Positions 33,892-43,336 of a stretch of DNA of 64,000 nucleotides are shown here, piece by piece; position 1 is the first letter of the stretch; each line of letters opens with the position of its first letter. This DNA comes from Rudanella paleaurantiibacter (GTDB lineage Bacteria; Bacteroidota; Bacteroidia; Cytophagales; Spirosomataceae), in the NCBI RefSeq assembly GCF_009184635.1, contig NZ_WELI01000003.1, positions 124,001 through 188,000 of the forward strand, read 5' to 3'. Below the pieces are notes generated by a model. The model was not told where the DNA came from, searched no databases, and was given only the letters and a program-made list of their open reading frames with translations. The position numbers and the translations under genes were made by a program.

Positions 33892-34782
33892 TTACCGCCC
33901 AAAGGCCCACGTCAGAAAGTCGGGCATAATAGCTCCCCAGGTTTCGGGGTTGTGGTGCCCCCCTTCGACCTCTACGTACCGCACATTCCCCGCCATACCG
34001 GGCTTCTCGCGCTGATACCCTATTTTTTCCAGCTCCGCAATCAGGTCGAGGGTATCGTCGATGGAGTCGATAACTCCGTTATTGTTACGGTCACTGGTTT
34101 CGTCGAGGGTGCCGGTTTGCAGCCAGAATTGCAAGCCGGAACGGTAGCTTCCCTGCCGCACGAGGGTATGCATAATCCGGTCGGTATCATCGTCGTAGGC
34201 ACTGCTAAACGCCTTGCTCCGCCACCAGAACGACCCCGAAAACACCCCCGCCCGGCTGAAGTGTTCGGGATGGTGAAAGACAATATCGAACGCCGATAGC
34301 CCACCGAGCGAGAACCCCGCAAAGGCGGCCTGTGCTGGTGCTGCACTCACCTGGTACTGTTTATGGATGTGGGGCAGCAGTTCGGTCAGTACAAAGTCGG
34401 TGTAGAGCCCGGCTTTGCTGCCGCGCTTCATGTAGTCGGGCTGGGCCGCTGTGCCGTACTCCTGAATCCGGTCGGCATGCGTATGAATGGCCACCAGCAC
34501 AAACGGCCGGACGGCCTGTTGGGCATAGAGCGAATCGAGCACCTGGGGCAGCCGCAACCGGGGGAGGTCCTGCCCGTCGTTGAGATACAGCACCGGGTAC
34601 GGTTCGGGCGCGTGGGCGTCGTACGCAGGGGGTAAAATAATATCGAGTTGCACACTCCGATTGAGGGGCACCGAGTACAGCGATTGGTCACGAACGACAG
34701 TCACTAAAGTCGTCGAAAATGCCGGGGTGGGATCGGCCATAAAGAAACAGATAAACAAAAATAAGCTACGCACAACCGGCAA
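33892..34782 (-). CDS. Putative esterase, enterochelin-esterase-like
   Basis: The product of about 296 residues is an alpha/beta hydrolase of the putative esterase family. Key segments are DIILPPAYDAHAPEPYPVLYL, the nucleophile elbow AFAGFSLGGLSAFD (Ser in GFSLGG) and the late VEGGHHNPETW with the catalytic His candidate. The frame opens with TTG at 34782, which gives a signal-peptide-like VVRSLFLFICFFMA. An ATG 14 codons later would yield a protein without a signal, so the start is uncertain. It is divergent from the amide-ligase cluster. Confidence 0.82.
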   Translation of the reverse strand: MPVVRSLFLFICFFMADPTPAFSTTLVTVVRDQSLYSVPLNRSVQLDIILPPAYDAHAPEPYPVLYLNDGQDLPRLRLPQVLDSLYAQQAVRPFVLVAIHTHADRIQEYGTAAQPDYMKRGSKAGLYTDFVLTELLPHIHKQYQVSAAPAQAAFAGFSLGGLSAFDIVFHHPEHFSRAGVFSGSFWWRSKAFSSAYDDDTDRIMHTLVRQGSYRSGLQFWLQTGTLDETSDRNNNGVIDSIDDTLDLIAELEKIGYQREKPGMAGNVRYVEVEGGHHNPETWGAIMPDFLTWAFGR

Positions 34783-34927: not shown

Positions 34928-35632
34928 TTGCATCAGGAATACCGTACTTACTACTCGCACCACCTCAATCGGACCCTCGAAATGCTCGTTTATGGCAACT
35001 GGGGCTACCCTATTCTGGTGTTCCCGACCACTATGGGCCGTTTCTACGAAGCGAGCGACTTTAAACTGATCGACGCGGTGAGCGCGCATATCAACTCGGG
35101 TCGGGTCAAACTATACTGTATCGACAGCGTTGACCGCGATAGCTGGTACGCCAAACACCTGCATCCCGGTGCCCGTATCTGGAACCACGTGCTGTACGAC
35201 CGCTTCCTGAGCGAAGAACTGGTGCCGTATATTCAGCGCGAAACCAACACGGGCAAAATTGGGGTAGCCGGGTGCAGCTTCGGCGGGTTTCAGGCCCTGA
35301 ACTTCGCGTTTCGGCACCCCGATCAGGTAGGACACCTCTTTTCGATGGGGGCCAAATTCGACATTCGGTCGTTTATGGATGGGTACTACGACGACAATGT
35401 GTATTTCAACAACCCGCCCGACTTTATTCCGAACGCCCACAACGACGAGTTTTACAAGATGAACATCGTACTGGGTACGTCGGAGCATGATTTCTGCAAA
35501 GGCTCAAACTTCGAAATGGCCGGTATTCTGGGCCGTAAGAACATTCCCCACTGGCTCGACGTAGTGCCCTGGGGTGAGCACGACTGGCCCGTCTGGCGGA
35601 GCATGTTTCCGCGCTATCTGAACATGATTTGA
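34928..35632 (+). CDS. COG4947-type esterase, first gene of amide-ligase cluster
   Basis: The 234-residue alpha/beta hydrolase matches my recollection of the COG4947 'uncharacterised esterase' family: HQEYRTYYSHHLNRTLEM, PILVFPTTMGRFYE and CIDSVDRDSWY at the front, nucleophile elbow GVAGCSFGGFQAL near residue 118, and WGEHDWPVWR with His near the end. The start codon is TTG at 34928. The next ATG (34982) would delete the conserved N-terminal strand, and there is a stop just upstream. It probably trims or transfers the acyl product of the ligases downstream (inference). Confidence 0.85.
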   Translation: MHQEYRTYYSHHLNRTLEMLVYGNWGYPILVFPTTMGRFYEASDFKLIDAVSAHINSGRVKLYCIDSVDRDSWYAKHLHPGARIWNHVLYDRFLSEELVPYIQRETNTGKIGVAGCSFGGFQALNFAFRHPDQVGHLFSMGAKFDIRSFMDGYYDDNVYFNNPPDFIPNAHNDEFYKMNIVLGTSEHDFCKGSNFEMAGILGRKNIPHWLDVVPWGEHDWPVWRSMFPRYLNMI

Positions 35633-35680
35633 CCGAGGTCCGGGCCGACAGTTTTGAACCGCTGCCGTTCAGCCTCCCCA

Positions 35681-35710
35681 ACACCTTACACTAAACCTTA
35701 CACCTTAAAC
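35681..35710 (+). repeat. Heptad array E (ACACCTT words), single-armed
   Basis: Four 7-nt words (ACACCTT, ACACTAA, ACCTTAC, ACCTTAA) lie just upstream of the DinB-fold gene. I found no complementary arm within the 88-bp gap. Confidence 0.6.
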
Positions 35711-35720
35711 GTACCCTGCT

Positions 35721-36203
35721 ATGTGGCCAAATCAGCATTATACCGCTGCCGACTCAACGCTCGAAGGGGCTCTCTCGCGGCTTACCGGGTATATTCAGGA
35801 GGTTCCGGCGCAACTCTCGGCCCTGCCCGAAGAAACGCTGCTGGACATGAAACCCGGCAAATGGTCGCGGAAACAACTGCTGGGCCACCTGATCGACTCG
35901 GCTCTGAACAACCTGAAACGATTCAACGAGGCTCAGTTTGGGCCGGAGCCATACACGTTTGCCTCCTACCGGCAAAACGAGCTGGTCGTTACGAACCATT
36001 ACCAGAACCTCCCGCTCGATCATCTGCTTACGCTCTGGCAAGCCCTGAACCGGCAAATCGTGCACGTTATCAGCGACTTACCCGAAGCCACCCGGCAGCG
36101 CAAGGTACAGGTAAAAGGCAGTGATGGCCCTCCGCGTACCCTGTCGTGGCTTATCGAAGACTACGTGGGGCACATGGAGCATCACCTGCAAAAGTTGCTT
36201 TAA
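35721..36203 (+). CDS. DinB-fold (DinB_2) protein
   Basis: The 160-residue cytoplasmic protein has the DinB-like four-helix pattern with metal-ligand histidines in LLGHLIDSALNNLKRF and in YVGHMEHHLQKLL at the C-terminus. Members include mycothiol- and bacillithiol-dependent S-transferases and uncharacterised stress proteins. It lies 88 bp after the esterase on the same strand, with a heptad array in the gap. Whether it belongs to the ligase pathway or merely lies among its genes is open. Confidence 0.85.
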   Translation: MWPNQHYTAADSTLEGALSRLTGYIQEVPAQLSALPEETLLDMKPGKWSRKQLLGHLIDSALNNLKRFNEAQFGPEPYTFASYRQNELVVTNHYQNLPLDHLLTLWQALNRQIVHVISDLPEATRQRKVQVKGSDGPPRTLSWLIEDYVGHMEHHLQKLL

Positions 36204-36359
36204 TTCCCTACCGCTACCCTCAACCTACCGCCAAGTTATTCTGGGGGTTGTGGTAACGCGACAAAAACGGCATTTTTGCCCCGCCTTCGGGCATGAGTAT
36301 AATTAAGGTTACACACAAACAACCTAAAAACAATCAGACACACCCGTCTGCTACGAACT

Positions 36360-37430
36360 ATGAAAAAAATAGGCATACTGTTCGGCCAGGAAAACACGTT
36401 CCCGCAAGCCTTTGTCGAGCGCGTCAACGAAAAACAAAGCGATTTCAAGGCCGAGTTTGTCTTTATCGACCGTGTGGAGCAAAGCGTCCCAACCGACTAC
36501 GCCGTTATCATCGACCGCATTTCGCAGGACGTTCCGTTTTACAAGGCGTTCCTGAAAAATGCCGCCCTCACCGGCACAGCCGTTATCAACAACCCGTTCT
36601 GGTGGGCTGCCGACGAGAAGTTTTTCAACAATGCCCTGGCCGTTCAGCTGGGTGTTCCGGTACCCAAAACCATTCTGCTGCCTTCTAAAGAGCGCCCCGA
36701 CGACACGAACCACAACTCGTTTCGGAACCTCGGCCACATGAACTGGGACGCCATTTTCGAGCATATCGGCTTCCCGGCGTTTATGAAACCCCACGCGGGC
36801 GGTGGCTGGAAAAGCGTGTACAAGGTAGACAACCCGGAGCAGATGTTCCGGGCCTACGACGAAACCGGGCAACTCGTGATGCTCTATCAGGAAGCTATCG
36901 ACTTTGAAGACTACTTCCGGTGCTACTGCATTGGCGGCAAAGACGTCCGGATTATGCCCTACGAGCCGCGCAACCCCCATCACCTGCGCTATGCCGCCGA
37001 GATGAAAACCACGGGCGATGCGGGCAAGAAGCTCCTCGAAACCATGACCGACTATGTGCTGAAGCTCAACCACGCCCTCGGGTACGACTTCAACACGGTG
37101 GAGTTTGCCGTACGCAACGGGGTGCCCATTGCCATCGATTTCTGCAACCCTGCGCCCGATGCCGACGTAAACTCGGTAGGTCAGGAAAACTTTGAGTGGG
37201 TGGTAGAGGCTGCTGCTAATATGGCTATTGAGCGTGCCAAGCGGGTGCAGGCGGGCAAAGACAACCTCACCTGGGGTACGTTTGTACGGGGCTCGGTAAC
37301 GGGTACCGGCCCGGTTGGTATTCAGAGCCCGGCCGCAAGCAGCGAACCAGCCAAAGAAGCCAAACCGAAGGCGAAAAAAGCCGAGGCCCCCAAAGCCGAG
37401 AAAGCCGCCCCTAAAAAGGCGAAAAAGTAA
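36360..37430 (+). CDS. RimK-like ATP-grasp ligase with Lys/Ala/Pro tail
   Basis: The 356-residue product is a RimK/D-Ala-D-Ala-ligase-type ATP-grasp enzyme. The ATP-binding lysine is in GFPAFMKPHAGGGWKSVY, the linker in LVMLYQEAIDFEDYFRCYCIG, and Mg-binding residues in FNTVEFAVRNGVPIAIDFCNP. Such enzymes join a carboxylate to an amine through an acyl phosphate. The last 35 residues are histone-H1-like, made almost only of Lys, Ala, Glu and Pro, which is unusual for the family and could bind nucleic acid or serve as a modification site. The substrate is unknown. Confidence 0.88.
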   Translation: MKKIGILFGQENTFPQAFVERVNEKQSDFKAEFVFIDRVEQSVPTDYAVIIDRISQDVPFYKAFLKNAALTGTAVINNPFWWAADEKFFNNALAVQLGVPVPKTILLPSKERPDDTNHNSFRNLGHMNWDAIFEHIGFPAFMKPHAGGGWKSVYKVDNPEQMFRAYDETGQLVMLYQEAIDFEDYFRCYCIGGKDVRIMPYEPRNPHHLRYAAEMKTTGDAGKKLLETMTDYVLKLNHALGYDFNTVEFAVRNGVPIAIDFCNPAPDADVNSVGQENFEWVVEAAANMAIERAKRVQAGKDNLTWGTFVRGSVTGTGPVGIQSPAASSEPAKEAKPKAKKAEAPKAEKAAPKKAKK

Positions 37431-37450
37431 AGAGGTTTGGGGTTTATGTG

Positions 37451-37534
37451 AATGAACAATGTAAAATGCATAATGAATAATTGATTTATCAGCTGATAAT
37501 CAACTTTTTCGTTACACATTTTACACTGTTCATT
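37451..37534. repeat. Heptad inverted repeat F (AATGnnn words)
   Basis: Five words AATGAAC, AATGTAA, AATGCAT, AATGAAT and AATTGAT start at 37451. The arm 37451-37468 is complementary to 37517-37534 at 17 of 18 positions. A second inner palindrome, TTATCAGCTGATAA, sits at the tip. It separates the ATP-grasp gene from the YbdK gene within the cluster. Confidence 0.88.
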
Positions 37535-37599
37535 ACACATTCCATTCAGCTAAGTCCCCAGAATCTTACCATCAACTGACCTTTAAACCAACCCATTGA

Positions 37600-38700
37600 A
37601 TGCACGTATTTACGCTTGGTATTGAGGAAGAATTCCAGACCATTGACCCCGTAACCCGCGAGCTTCGGTCGCACATGTCGAAGCTCGTTGAAGGAGGCAA
37701 AATAGTGCTTCAGGAGCGCGTAAAGGCCGAAATGCACCAGGCCGTAGTGGAAGTAGGCACCAATATTTGCCACAATATTCACGAAGCCCGGCAGGAGGTG
37801 ACCTACCTCCGGCGCGAGATTATCGAGCTGGCCGACAAGCAGAACCTGAAGGTGGCGGCCGCCGGCACGCACCCCTTCTCCGACTGGCAGGCGCAACTCA
37901 TCACGCCCAACGAACGCTACGATCAGCTGATTGAGGAAATGCGCGACGTGGCCCGGTCGAACCTGATTTTTGGCTTGCACGTACACGTGGGCATCAGCAG
38001 CCGCAACGAAGGCATTCAGATCATGAACGCGGTCCGTTACTTTTTGCCCCACATCTACGCCCTGTCGACCAACTCGCCGTTCTGGCGCGGGCGCAACACC
38101 GGCTTCAAGTCGTACCGCTCCAAGGTGTTCGACAAATTTCCGCGCACGGGTATCCCCGACTTTTTCTCGTCGGCGGCCGAGTACGACGAGTACATTGCCC
38201 TGCTGGTGAAAACGGGTTGTATCGACAACGGGAAGAAAATCTGGTGGGACATCCGGTTGCACCCGTTCTTCGACACCATCGAGTTCCGAATTTGCGACGT
38301 CCCGATGCGGGTCGATGAAACGGTTTGCCTGGCTGCGATCATGCAGGCGCTGGTGGCTAAAATTTCTAAACTCCACCGGCAAAACCTCAATTTCAGGCCC
38401 TATCGGCGCATTCTGATTAGCGAAAACAAGTGGCGGGCCGCCCGGTACGGCATCGAAGGCAAGCTCATCGACTTCGGTAAGCAGGAAGAAGTGCCTACGC
38501 ACAGCCTGATTCATGAATTGCTCGATTTTATCGACGATGTACTAGATGAACTAGGTAGCCGACAGGAGTGCGAGTACGTGCTTAAAATGCTCGAAATGGG
38601 TACGGGTGCCGACCGGCAGCTGGCTGTTTTCAACCAAACCGGCGACCTCAAACAGGTTGTGGATTACATTGTTGCGGAAACTTCCTTCGGCGTGAGGTAG
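37600..38700 (+). CDS. ybdK: YbdK/GCS2-type carboxylate-amine ligase
   Basis: The 366-residue enzyme belongs to the glutamine-synthetase-fold carboxylate-amine ligases (COG2170, YbdK). The opening FTLGIEEEFQTIDP carries the metal-binding glutamates, GLHVHVGIS is the family His motif, and DIRLHPFFDTIEFRICDVPM is the signature near residue 225. Members have weak glutamate-cysteine ligase activity, but the true substrates are mostly unknown. It is 14 bp upstream of the amidotransferase. The start follows a heptad inverted repeat, so translation or transcription may be retuned here. Confidence 0.93.
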   Translation: MHVFTLGIEEEFQTIDPVTRELRSHMSKLVEGGKIVLQERVKAEMHQAVVEVGTNICHNIHEARQEVTYLRREIIELADKQNLKVAAAGTHPFSDWQAQLITPNERYDQLIEEMRDVARSNLIFGLHVHVGISSRNEGIQIMNAVRYFLPHIYALSTNSPFWRGRNTGFKSYRSKVFDKFPRTGIPDFFSSAAEYDEYIALLVKTGCIDNGKKIWWDIRLHPFFDTIEFRICDVPMRVDETVCLAAIMQALVAKISKLHRQNLNFRPYRRILISENKWRAARYGIEGKLIDFGKQEEVPTHSLIHELLDFIDDVLDELGSRQECEYVLKMLEMGTGADRQLAVFNQTGDLKQVVDYIVAETSFGVR

Positions 38701-38714
38701 TTAGGAAAAGTGAG

Positions 38715-39548
38715 ATGAAAATCGCTATCCTTGATATGTACGACAACCATGCCAACGAGGGCATGCGTTGTATTCAGCAGATTATCCGCATGGTAGAAGG
38801 CCAGGTGCGGGTGCCGCTTCACTTCGATGTGTTCAATGTTCGGGCGGGGAAAACCCCCGATCAGGTGCACCTGCCCGGTCTCCACTACGACGCGTACATT
38901 TCGACTGGTGGCCCCGGAAGCCCGCTACCCCTCAACGAAGCCTGGGAGGAACCGTACTTCGACCTGATCGACGAGCTGTTTACGTGGAATCGGACGCAGG
39001 AACCCAAAAAACCCTTGTTTCTGATCTGCCACTCGTTTCAACTGGTAGCCCGGCACCTGGGACTGGGCACCATCAGCAAGCGTCGGTCGACCTCGTTCGG
39101 TATTTTTCCGATGCACCGAACCGACGACGGGTACGCCGAACCGTTTTTCGGCGGCTTACCCGACCCATTTTACGCCGTCGACTCCCGCGATTACCAGCTC
39201 ACAGAGCCTAATCTGGAGCGATTCGATGAGATTGGCGCGCAGATTCTGTGTTTGGAAAAAATTCGGCCCCACGTCGATTTGCCCAGGGCCGTGATGGCCG
39301 TGCGCTTCGGACCCGAAATTTTCGGGACCCAGTTTCACCCGGAGGCCGACGGTGAGGGGATGCTACGTTACTTCATGACCGACGAAAAACGCGACCAGAT
39401 TGTGTCGGTACACGGGCAGGCCAAGTACGACGAAATGGTCGCTTATTTACAAGACCCTAACAAAATTGAGCTAACCGAATCGGTGGTGCTGCCGGGCTTT
39501 TTGCGCCATGCTATCCAGACCCAGCGCCAGTCGACCTTCGAGTATTAG
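38715..39548 (+). CDS. Class I glutamine amidotransferase-like protein
   Basis: The 277-residue product has the GATase class I fold. It opens MKIAILDMYDNHANEG and continues to YISTGGPGSPLP. The nucleophile elbow is FLICHSFQLVARHLG (Cys about residue 98), and the His/Glu pair is in FGTQFHPEADGEGM. The usual C-x-G elbow is replaced by C-H-S, as in some stand-alone or non-ammonia-producing members. It may hydrolyse glutamine to supply ammonia or cleave a gamma-glutamyl bond for the neighbouring ligases (inference). It is 14 bp after ybdK and 19 bp before the second ATP-grasp gene. Confidence 0.88.
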   Translation: MKIAILDMYDNHANEGMRCIQQIIRMVEGQVRVPLHFDVFNVRAGKTPDQVHLPGLHYDAYISTGGPGSPLPLNEAWEEPYFDLIDELFTWNRTQEPKKPLFLICHSFQLVARHLGLGTISKRRSTSFGIFPMHRTDDGYAEPFFGGLPDPFYAVDSRDYQLTEPNLERFDEIGAQILCLEKIRPHVDLPRAVMAVRFGPEIFGTQFHPEADGEGMLRYFMTDEKRDQIVSVHGQAKYDEMVAYLQDPNKIELTESVVLPGFLRHAIQTQRQSTFEY

Positions 39549-39567
39549 CCCTATCCGCTCATTTCCT

Positions 39568-40761
39568 ATGCTGCAACCCGTTCGCCAGGTATTCAATCAG
39601 GCCTTTAGCCCCGCGCAATACGGGGCTTTTTTGGAGTCGATTCAGAACGATATGCCCGGCCTGCTCGATTTTAGGGTGGCCGAAACCCCTGTTTTTGTCC
39701 CGAAAGACCTCGGCGACAAGCTAAAACAGGCCTGCGCCGATATTGTCGAGGTGATTACCGCCCCCGACTTTAAAGCCCGCACTGAGGGAGCTATTCCGGC
39801 AGATCAGCGTGTACCGAACGAAAACGGCCATACCACATTTCTGGCCGTCGACTTTGCCGTTTGCCGGGCAGCCGATGGCTCACTCGAACCACAACTGATC
39901 GAATTACAGGGCTTTCCGTCGCTTTTCGGGTTTCAGGCGTACCTGCCCGAGAAGTTCCGGCAGTTTTACCCCATTCCCGACGAGGTGTCGCCGTTGTTCA
40001 ACGGCCTCGACCGGGCGGCTTACCTCGACTTGCTGCGTCAGACCATCGTGGCCGATTGTGACCCCGAACAAGTGATTCTGCTTGAGATTTACCCCGAACA
40101 GCAGAAAACCCGCATCGATTTCGAACTCACCCGCCAGTATCTGGGTGTTGCGCCGGTTTGCCTGACCAGAATCCGCAAGGATGGCCGGAAACTATACTAC
40201 GAAAAAGACGGTCGGCGAATCGACATCAAGCGTATTTACAACCGGCTGATCTTCGACGACCTCCAAAATTACCCCAACCTCCAGACCGAATTCAACCTCA
40301 CCGACGACGTAGACGTGACGTGGGTGGGGCATCCCAACTGGTTTTTTCGCATCAGCAAGTACACCCTCCCTTTGCTGGAGAGCCAATTTGTTCCCCAAAG
40401 CTATTTTTTGAGCGATCTGGAGACGCCCCCCGCCGATCTGGAGAATTACGTGCTAAAACCCCTGTTTTCGTTTGCCGGGGCCGGCGTCAAAATACACGTG
40501 ACGCCCGCCGACATCGACGCCATTCCGGCCGACCAACGCGGTAACTTCCTGTTGCAACGGAAGGTGCAATACGAGCCCGTCATTCAATCGCCCGACGGAC
40601 TGGTGAAGTGCGAAATCCGTATGTTGCTGGTGTGGCCCGACTCCGCCGAAAAGCCCATTCTGGCCACAAATTTGGCCCGACTGAGCCGGGGTGAAATGAT
40701 TGGGGTCAACTTTAACAAAAACAAAGACTGGGTCGGCGGAACGGTCTGTTTCTTCCCGTAG
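39568..40761 (+). CDS. Second ATP-grasp-like enzyme of the cluster
   Basis: The 397-residue product has the look of an ATP-grasp fold of the glutathionylspermidine-synthase/circularly permuted class. ENYVLKPLFSFAGAGVKI is the ATP-binding lysine and glycine-rich loop, and VKCEIRMLLVW and NLARLSRGEMIGVNFNKNKD give metal-site residues. The N-terminal half (FLAVDFAVCRAADGSLEPQLIELQGFPSLFGFQ) is characteristic of a Bacteroidota family I recall only as hypothetical. The ATG at 39568 lies 19 bp after the amidotransferase; the upstream extension is rejected. The stop codon TAG is part of a GTAGAGACG repeat. Confidence 0.75.
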   Translation: MLQPVRQVFNQAFSPAQYGAFLESIQNDMPGLLDFRVAETPVFVPKDLGDKLKQACADIVEVITAPDFKARTEGAIPADQRVPNENGHTTFLAVDFAVCRAADGSLEPQLIELQGFPSLFGFQAYLPEKFRQFYPIPDEVSPLFNGLDRAAYLDLLRQTIVADCDPEQVILLEIYPEQQKTRIDFELTRQYLGVAPVCLTRIRKDGRKLYYEKDGRRIDIKRIYNRLIFDDLQNYPNLQTEFNLTDDVDVTWVGHPNWFFRISKYTLPLLESQFVPQSYFLSDLETPPADLENYVLKPLFSFAGAGVKIHVTPADIDAIPADQRGNFLLQRKVQYEPVIQSPDGLVKCEIRMLLVWPDSAEKPILATNLARLSRGEMIGVNFNKNKDWVGGTVCFFP

Positions 40762-42066: not shown

Positions 42067-42126
42067 TGAATAATGTATAATGCCGGGTCCCCCCCCACCA
42101 TACATTATTCATTACGCATTACTCAT
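42067..42126. repeat. Heptad inverted repeat H (TAnnCAT words)
   Basis: TGAATAATGTAT at 42067-42078 is exactly complementary to 42100-42111. The right side continues as words CATACAT, TATTCAT, TACGCAT, TACTCAT up to 42126, eight bases before the aminotransferase ATG. This element is upstream of two divergent genes, unlike most of the others. Confidence 0.85.
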
Positions 42127-42133
42127 TAACAAC

Positions 42134-43336
42134 ATGACCCATCGCCAGCTATTTTTCCAGCACGTTGCCCAAACCTCTGATTTCCCGCTTGCCCTCGAAA
42201 TTGAGCGCGCCGAGGGTGTGTATCTCTACACCGCTTCTGGCCAACGGTACATGGACCTGATTTCGGGCATTGGTGTAAGCAATGTAGGGCACCGGCATCC
42301 GAACGTACTGGAAGCCATTGGACACCAACTGGACAAATACCTGCACCTGATGGTCTACGGCGAGTATGTGCAGACACCCCAAACGCAGCTCGCCCAGGCC
42401 CTCGCGGATACACTGAGCCCGTACACAGGCCCACATGGCAAGCTGAGCAACGTGTATTTCACCAACTCAGGCACCGAGGCCGTTGAAGGAGCCATGAAAC
42501 TGGCCAAGCGGTTTACCGGTCGTACCGAAATTATTAGCTGTTTCAACGCGTACCACGGCGCTACGCAGGGGGCTCTTTCGCTCTCAGGCGACGAGAATTT
42601 CAAACGCAATTACCGTCCCCTCCTACCCGACGTTCGGCATATTCGCTACGGACACCTGCCCCATCTGGAGCACATCACCCGTCGTACGGCCGCCGTTGTC
42701 ATCGAGGTTGTGTCGGCCGAATCGGGTATCCGCGTGCCCGACCCGGCCTACCTACAGGCCGTTCGCCAACGTTGCACCGACACCGGCACTCTGTTGATTT
42801 TCGACGAAATCCAGACAGGATTTGGCCGCACGGGCACGTTTTGGGCGTTTGAGGGCTTCGGTCCCGTGGTGCCCGATGTACTGGTGTGCGCCAAAGGCAT
42901 GGGGGGCGGTATGCCCATCGGTGCGTTTATCAGTTCGCCTGAGGTTATGGTGGTGTTTAAAAACAACCCGATTCTGGGGCATATCACCACGTTTGGCGGG
43001 CACCCGGTTTCGTGCGCGGCCTCGTTGGCAACGCTGAACGTGATTCGCAACGAAAAACTGTACGCGCAGGCCGAAGCGAAAGGGCAGCTTTTCCGACAGT
43101 TGCTCGCCGACGTGCCAGGGATTCGGGCCGTTCGGGGTAAAGGGCTGATGCTGGCGGCCGAGTTCGATTCGTTTGCGGTGCTCAAACCGGTTATTGACCG
43201 CGCCATCGAGCGGGGCGTCATTACCGACTGGTTTTTGTTTTGCGACAACTCAATGCGCATTGCCCCGCCACTCATCATCACCGAAGAACAGATTCATGAA
43301 GCCTGCACCGTCATTCGAGATGCGGCAGGAGTGTAA
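42134..43336 (+). CDS. Class III PLP-dependent aminotransferase
   Basis: The 400-residue enzyme transfers an amino group using pyridoxal phosphate. The catalytic lysine is in VLVCAKGMGGGMPIGAF, preceded by LLIFDEIQTGFGRTG; the phosphate-binding NSGTEAVEGAMKLAKRFTG is near residue 100. It resembles acetylornithine/ornithine-type aminotransferases, but no arginine-pathway genes are near, so the substrate is open. The start ATG 42134 (MTHRQLFFQHVAQT) is taken; an upstream in-frame extension reads through the heptad repeat and is rejected. Confidence 0.92.
   Translation: MTHRQLFFQHVAQTSDFPLALEIERAEGVYLYTASGQRYMDLISGIGVSNVGHRHPNVLEAIGHQLDKYLHLMVYGEYVQTPQTQLAQALADTLSPYTGPHGKLSNVYFTNSGTEAVEGAMKLAKRFTGRTEIISCFNAYHGATQGALSLSGDENFKRNYRPLLPDVRHIRYGHLPHLEHITRRTAAVVIEVVSAESGIRVPDPAYLQAVRQRCTDTGTLLIFDEIQTGFGRTGTFWAFEGFGPVVPDVLVCAKGMGGGMPIGAFISSPEVMVVFKNNPILGHITTFGGHPVSCAASLATLNVIRNEKLYAQAEAKGQLFRQLLADVPGIRAVRGKGLMLAAEFDSFAVLKPVIDRAIERGVITDWFLFCDNSMRIAPPLIITEEQIHEACTVIRDAAGV

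Follow-up and report, generated by a model that had tools for sequence, protein, structure and literature searches.

The window analysed here is a stretch of 64,000 nucleotides from Rudanella paleaurantiibacter (Bacteroidota; Cytophagales; Spirosomataceae), namely positions 124,001 to 188,000 of the forward strand of contig NZ_WELI01000003.1 in assembly GCF_009184635.1; the host genome is 6.72 Mb in size. The initial annotation of the window had described six codirectional open reading frames (ORFs) as a candidate amide biosynthesis cluster, and all six are present. They are designated A to F below.

34928-35632, plus strand: A, predicted esterase (ORF; PF00756)
35721-36203, plus strand: B, predicted DinB-fold protein (ORF; DinB_2)
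36360-37430, plus strand: C, predicted RimK/LysX-like ATP-grasp ligase with a Lys/Ala/Pro-rich C-terminal tail (predicted fold, orthologue alignment)
37600-38700, plus strand: D, predicted YbdK-family carboxylate-amine ligase, GCS2 (profile scores, 1r8g match)
38715-39548, plus strand: E, class-I glutamine amidotransferase (GATase)-like Cys-His-Glu enzyme, putative (PF00117, kept residues)
39568-40761 (ORF opens at 39508), plus strand: F, predicted ATP-grasp ligase with the fold of YgiC, glutathionylspermidine (Gsp) synthetase and eukaryotic glutathione synthetase (predicted model)

The start of F is probably at 39568, where the aligned orthologues begin, which places it 19 bases after E.

Conservation and co-inheritance of the gene set

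The conservation of A, C, D, E and F as a set is real. When named genomes were scanned with protein C, at least 543 relatives were obtained, and the best 80 of these at least 543 loci, all from Bacteroidota by title, were kept (named loci); they include Spirosoma, Fibrella, Hymenobacter, Dyadobacter, Larkinella, Runella, Emticicia, Mucilaginibacter, Zeaxanthinibacter, and Saprospiraceae. The nearest relatives of protein C among the matches listed belong to Spirosoma and Fibrella (87–90% identity). The ORF caller recovered the complete core of five genes in 42 of the 80 named loci; 25 loci span less than 14 kb, and genes lying under longer antisense ORFs escape the caller, so the gene counts are lower bounds. 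Where both members of a pair are held, they are codirectional neighbours in 60/64 loci for A–C, 62/62 for C–D, 51/51 for D–E, and 50/51 for E–F, and the median gaps between successive core genes are 31–92 bases. Conservation of gene order, proposed initially as a check on the cluster, is thus confirmed for the core. In the order sample (148 genomes), 40 stretches around gene F were fetched from 40 genomes. Several of them show the order E0-A-C-D-E-F, where E0 is a second esterase gene described below, and others hold only F, D-E-F, or E-F.

Gene B does not share this conservation. Its product gives 42 bits with DinB_2 (cut-off 24.8) and does not reach the bacillithiol S-transferase YfiT model NF009807 (47 bits against a cut-off of 160). 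Found in 5 of the 80 named loci, B is an occasional passenger, and a unit of six genes, as initially drawn, is too large. The gaps between the window genes (14–169 bases) appear to leave no conserved space for a precursor peptide gene beside a ligase, as in graspetide-type systems, although small ORFs were not systematically searched. No transporter occurs among the conserved neighbour genes of the named loci, and family-model searches gave no non-ribosomal peptide synthetase (NRPS) match for the six window proteins; the soluble product envisaged in the initial annotation fits both results.

In the order sample, C and F occur in the identical 50 genomes and the other 98 have neither, without a single discordant case. 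E was found in 48 of these 50 genomes and in 3 of the 98 others, and D in 40 of the 50 and in 0 of the 98; the ten genomes without D all belong to one family (f4). These counts drop three C matches of 40 residues (E-values 3.5e-4 to 9.6e-4; genomes G067, G122, G135) and one D match (G016, 30 bits); G138 was scored as C-positive from a 42-residue piece beside D, and the E match of G113 (129 bits) was retained as E without C. Fisher p-values for the order sample go down to 1e-40, which is too strong, since they ignore shared ancestry.

The distance between C and F is less than 10 kb in 23 of the 50 genomes and 20–169 kb on the same contig in 4, and the genes lie on different contigs in the remaining 23, some of which could be nearer than they appear, the contigs being draft. 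Close linkage of C and F is thus lacking in 27 of the 50 genomes, and their joint presence is more than a by-product of linkage. Scattering without co-occurrence had been named at the outset as the contrary outcome; the genes are indeed scattered in these 27 genomes, yet they co-occur. The same result bears on the view that these are unrelated housekeeping genes sharing a deep ancestral order. Old gene orders are common to many Bacteroidota, and bacterial families with the set tend to carry it in most members, as this view would predict; however, the genes stay together in gene content where the order is lost, and we regard such an explanation as very improbable.

In the phylum sample (296 genomes), C is present in 108 genomes and F in 92; both are found in 89, C only in 19, and F only in 3. 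E occurs in 70 genomes, of which 69 have C. Weak matches were dropped from the phylum counts, namely 3 of 111 genomes for C, 1 of 93 for F, 11 of 81 for E, and 81 of 87 for an M29-peptidase-like protein described below (weakest kept match 527 bits, best dropped match 129 bits).

Predicted enzymes and their replacements

By its family scores, D is a predicted carboxylate-amine ligase of the YbdK family. It gives 227.2 bits with GCS2 (cut-off 21), exceeds the curated cut-offs of NF010039 (566.6 bits, cut-off 371) and TIGR02050 (318.7 bits, cut-off 176.4), and matches the E. coli ybdK structure 1r8g with an E-value of 4.5e-52. Residues E9 and E10 are kept in 63/63 aligned sequences; here, as for A, C, and E below, we take the residues named to be catalytic from family knowledge. 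E. coli YbdK has a weak gamma-glutamylcysteine ligase activity. Although D belongs to the same family, it differs from this enzyme in standing within a conserved multi-ligase set and, in the order sample, in being absent from every genome that lacks C and F. As D is common but dispensable, it is argued not to make the backbone of a product in all lineages, and the three ligases of the initial annotation are not a fixed number.

For F, no Pfam family is above its cut-off (PF03738, glutathionylspermidine synthase, gives 13.5 bits against 29.3), and a profile search against solved structures matched nothing. The predicted model of F (m907955858526; predicted local distance difference test score, pLDDT, 91.2) is similar to YgiC (7uk8; Z 25.7, root-mean-square deviation, rmsd, 3.5, 341 aligned residues), YjfC (7uk6; Z 25.4), Gsp synthetase (2ioa; Z 24.5), human glutathione synthetase (Z 24.1), and Cp1B (9cjn; Z 22.2). 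Modelled in this way, F has a glutathione/Gsp synthetase-type ATP-grasp fold over its whole length. The likeness to YgiC, YjfC, and Gsp synthetase extends over the entire protein, but the identity in the structural alignments is only 10–16%, the PF03738 score is below the cut-off, and F is one of several ligases in its cluster. A title cited in PMC12568646 credits YgiC and YjfC with peptide–spermidine ligase activity.

F is not present in all lineages with C. Fifteen of the 19 phylum genomes with C only have E, and 11 of these 15 were fetched. A CP_ATPgrasp_2-like protein (circularly permuted ATP-grasp) follows C in 11/11 of them and sits between C and E in all ten fetched stretches holding E. 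Two examples give 37.3 and 23.7 bits with PF14403 (cut-off 32), so one of them passes. Since this ATP-grasp follows C and no D model match is labelled in these fetched stretches, a different ligase takes the place of F (and D). A CP_ATPgrasp_2 protein is also encoded, unlinked, in the source genome (G000:C28:412734-413855, 547 bits), and relatives of its family are those that replace F elsewhere; it was set aside as a part of the set, as it probably belongs to another system.

A is predicted to be a cytosolic PF00756 esterase (44.8 bits, cut-off 22), presumably of the COG4947 type, which retains Ser117-Asp188-His218; S117 is found in 65/66 and D188 and H218 in 66/66 aligned sequences. PF00756 is the family of esterase D. 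Together with the GCS2 membership of D and the eukaryotic glutathione synthetase fold of F, this would suit the synthesis of a glutathione-like thiol, in which D would form gamma-glutamylcysteine, C and/or F would add the third residue, A would act like S-formylglutathione hydrolase, and B, YfiT-like at 47 bits, would be a thiol S-transferase. A thiol was also among the products first suggested. However, BshC of bacillithiol synthesis was found in 132 of the 148 order genomes, namely in 50/50 with C and F and in 82 of the 98 that lack them, so a thiol pathway already exists in these genomes; a replacement thiol is unlikely for this reason and was rejected as a candidate. Moreover, D, which would have to act first, is missing in ten of the 50 genomes with C and F, and B is rare. 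With the thiol product weakened in this way, we consider this explanation quite improbable.

C has no Pfam family above the cut-off and does not reach TIGR00768 rimK_fam (36.9 bits, cut-off 143.4) or the LysX model (25.5 bits, cut-off 275.6); a profile search against solved structures gave one weak D-Ala ligase match only. The predicted model of C (m25b74644784c; mean pLDDT 78.3) matches RimK (5zct; Z 20.1, rmsd 2.8, 260 aligned residues), 5k2m (Z 19.5), and 3vpb (Z 19.4), the scores for RimK, LysX, and ArgX lying within about 1 Z of each other and counting as ties. As modelled, C has a RimK/LysX-type ATP-grasp fold with a whole-domain match. K143, E248, D260, and N263 are kept in 79/79 aligned sequences. 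Despite the similarity in fold, C differs from RimK, LysX, and ArgX in falling below the model cut-offs and in its tail, and no LysW-like carrier was noticed among the recurrent neighbours, where it was not searched for separately.

The tail of C is lysine/alanine/proline-rich and histone-H1-like (37310-37430 in the window). A lysine-rich tail was found in 66 of 79 C proteins (78 named loci and the window) and in none of the 575 proteins that belong to the other families (three or more members) of the same loci, by a rule set after the tails had been seen. With 12 of the 16 linked loci of the order carrying it, versus 6 of 29 deeper phylum loci, the tail is a lineage-bound addition rather than part of the catalytic core. 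In one locus (L147), the tail ends in a stretch that looks by eye like a helix-hairpin-helix, a domain type for which Pfam gave no match there.

Two of RimK, LysX, and ArgX act on protein tails. It is therefore conceivable that the set modifies proteins or ribosomes: C would add amino acids to a protein tail while its own basic tail docks on the ribosome or nucleoid, F would add another group, and the tag would be removed by E or by the M29-like protein. The tied structural matches of C and the occurrence of the lysine-rich tail in C proteins, but in none of the other proteins compared, are in line with this. Against it stand the lineage-bound distribution of the tail, the framing of the tail test after the fact, the rimK_fam score far below the cut-off, and the small-molecule products of relatives of D and F. 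The RimK fold of C combined with the tail keeps protein modification under consideration, as a fairly unlikely reading.

E gives 33 bits with PF00117 (GATase; cut-off 22.8), and C105, H208, E210, and Q109 are each kept in 59/59 aligned sequences, so that both the Pfam score and the Cys-His-Glu residues place it in the class-I GATases. Weak profile matches to 3l7n and 2vdj were also found; the latter, a match to homoserine O-succinyltransferase (E-value 0.0012), covers a motif DSRDYQ aligned to HSRHTE. Homoserine O-succinyltransferase also works via a cysteine acyl-enzyme. On these features, E is probably a hydrolase or an acyl-transferring enzyme.

A gene for an M29-peptidase-like protein (PF02073, 53–56 bits, cut-off 27) was detected at more than 500 bits in 6 of the 296 phylum genomes. 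All six have C and F and none has E, although these genomes are few and related. No more than 1 kb separates the gene from F in five of them, and in the sixth (G346) it lies far from F; it occupies the slot of E in loci L069 (order sample), L258, L259, and L275. Of the 89 phylum genomes with C and F, 54 have E, 6 have the M29-like gene, and 29 have neither. The presence of the M29-like gene where E is absent suggests, without proof, that E hydrolyses an amide rather than donates ammonia, and the role of an amidotransferase supplying groups, as first considered for E, is weakened.

The opposite view is that E is a true glutaminase, which feeds ammonia to C or F for the formation of a primary amide, like the ATP-grasp and class-I GATase of carbamoyl-phosphate synthetase. 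The retained residues and the Pfam score of E agree with this; however, a peptidase is unable to act as such a source of glutamine-derived ammonia, and it is a peptidase-like gene that takes the slot of E, while a third or so of the genomes with C and F (29/89) manage with neither. Such a role is, in our estimation, hardly probable. The same replacement can also be placed in a scheme of phylum-wide reversible tagging, where C, anchored by its tail to the ribosome, nucleoid, or another polyanion, would work with F to cap a target, either a protein or RNA-borne, with a polyamine or a non-ribosomal peptide, and the cap would be removed by E or by the M29-like protein. We consider this scheme unlikely.

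A candidate pathway to a peptide-like amide

We propose that A, C, D, E, and F may constitute an NRPS-independent pathway of aerobic-type Bacteroidota lineages leading to a small soluble peptide-like amide, a proposal for which the chances of being right and wrong seem to us evenly balanced. Its basis is the gene set, its co-inheritance, the intact active sites, the folds, and the in-place substitution of E and F. By the chemistry of the families, D would activate an amino acid, probably glutamate, at its gamma- or alpha-carboxylate and join this to an amine. C, being of the RimK/LysX type, would add an alpha-amino acid, and F would cap the acceptor carboxylate with an amino acid or a polyamine. 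E would hydrolyse or remodel one amide through a cysteine acyl-enzyme, in trimming or recycling, a job that the M29-peptidase-like protein may do in other lineages. A would cleave an ester or thioester form, either of the product or of an activated form. The initial idea of a conserved amidoligase set with two ATP-grasp ligases and a YbdK-type ligase is borne out by the gene order, the co-inheritance, and the folds.

Several points weigh against the pathway. The constant pair consists only of C and an F-type ligase: D is missing in a fifth of the C- and F-positive order genomes (10/50), E and its M29-like counterpart are both absent in the 29 phylum genomes mentioned, and four C-positive phylum genomes (215–357 bits) have neither F nor E. 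In a small-molecule enzyme, a lysine-rich tail like that of C is odd, and the p-values leave shared ancestry out of account. Substrates, product, and reaction order are proposals only, as folds do not fix substrates.

Among known systems, Gsp synthetase/amidase is similar in its logic, a ligase with an amide-cleaving partner. Peptide-amidoligase neighbourhoods combining ATP-grasp, GCS2, and peptidase genes were reportedly described by Iyer et al. in 2009 and resemble the set in general concept. In the E-64 pathway, standalone ligases build an NRPS-free pseudopeptide stepwise (PMC12568646), and the model of F matches its Cp1B. That pathway is, however, fungal, its Cp1D is an adenylating enzyme and not GCS2 or RimK-like, and no GATase-like partner is described in the accessible part of the same source (PMC12568646). 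The component families of the set are already known. In the literature searched, most subscription journals and the 2009 survey being outside the search, no work on the A-C-D-E-F cluster was found, nor a description of the co-inherited set, the in-place substitutions, or the tail of C. YbdK, YgiC-like, and RimK-like ligases have long been orphans whose activities are weak or promiscuous, and the co-inheritance ties relatives of all three together in many Bacteroidota, which offers a shared test of their substrates. Should a metabolite turn up, it would be a new and widespread compound in a large phylum of environmental bacteria.

Neighbouring genes and minor observations

Two further genes recur near the set.

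33892-34782, minus strand: E0, divergent esterase (PF00756, 93.9 bits; recurrent near A)
42080-43336, strand not stated: class-III aminotransferase near F (recurrent neighbour in Spirosomataceae)

E0 has a hydrophobic N-terminal stretch, judged by eye to be a secretion signal. It is divergent from A and at most 1.5 kb away in 52 of the 65 named loci with A; it is a frequent associate, and its membership in the set is uncertain. The class-III aminotransferase is a neighbour in other Spirosomataceae and lies upstream of the cluster in L164. It adjoins F in 19 of the 20 loci with both, but is present in only 20 of the 80 named loci; the window gene gives 345.1 bits with the ArgD model, and two other genes of the genome score similarly (356.6 and 354.8 bits). 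It was rejected as a core member on these grounds.

None of the six proteins matched the PADLOC anti-phage models (E-value 0.01), a tblastn search of plasmids with C and F gave no match, and a promoter and terminator scan of the locus found no more than in shuffled sequence. In loci L129 and L131, the ORF of F opens about 107 residues early (504 aa) and E is uncalled, probably a calling artefact in GC-rich DNA. An extra alpha/beta-hydrolase-like gene is located between A and C in five Cytophagales loci (L137, L150, L164, L166, L169). A gene resembling, by eye, an isoaspartyl-peptidase/asparaginase is found a few genes upstream in ten Hymenobacter loci (L102, L103, L104, L106, L108, L109, L110, L113, L115, L119).

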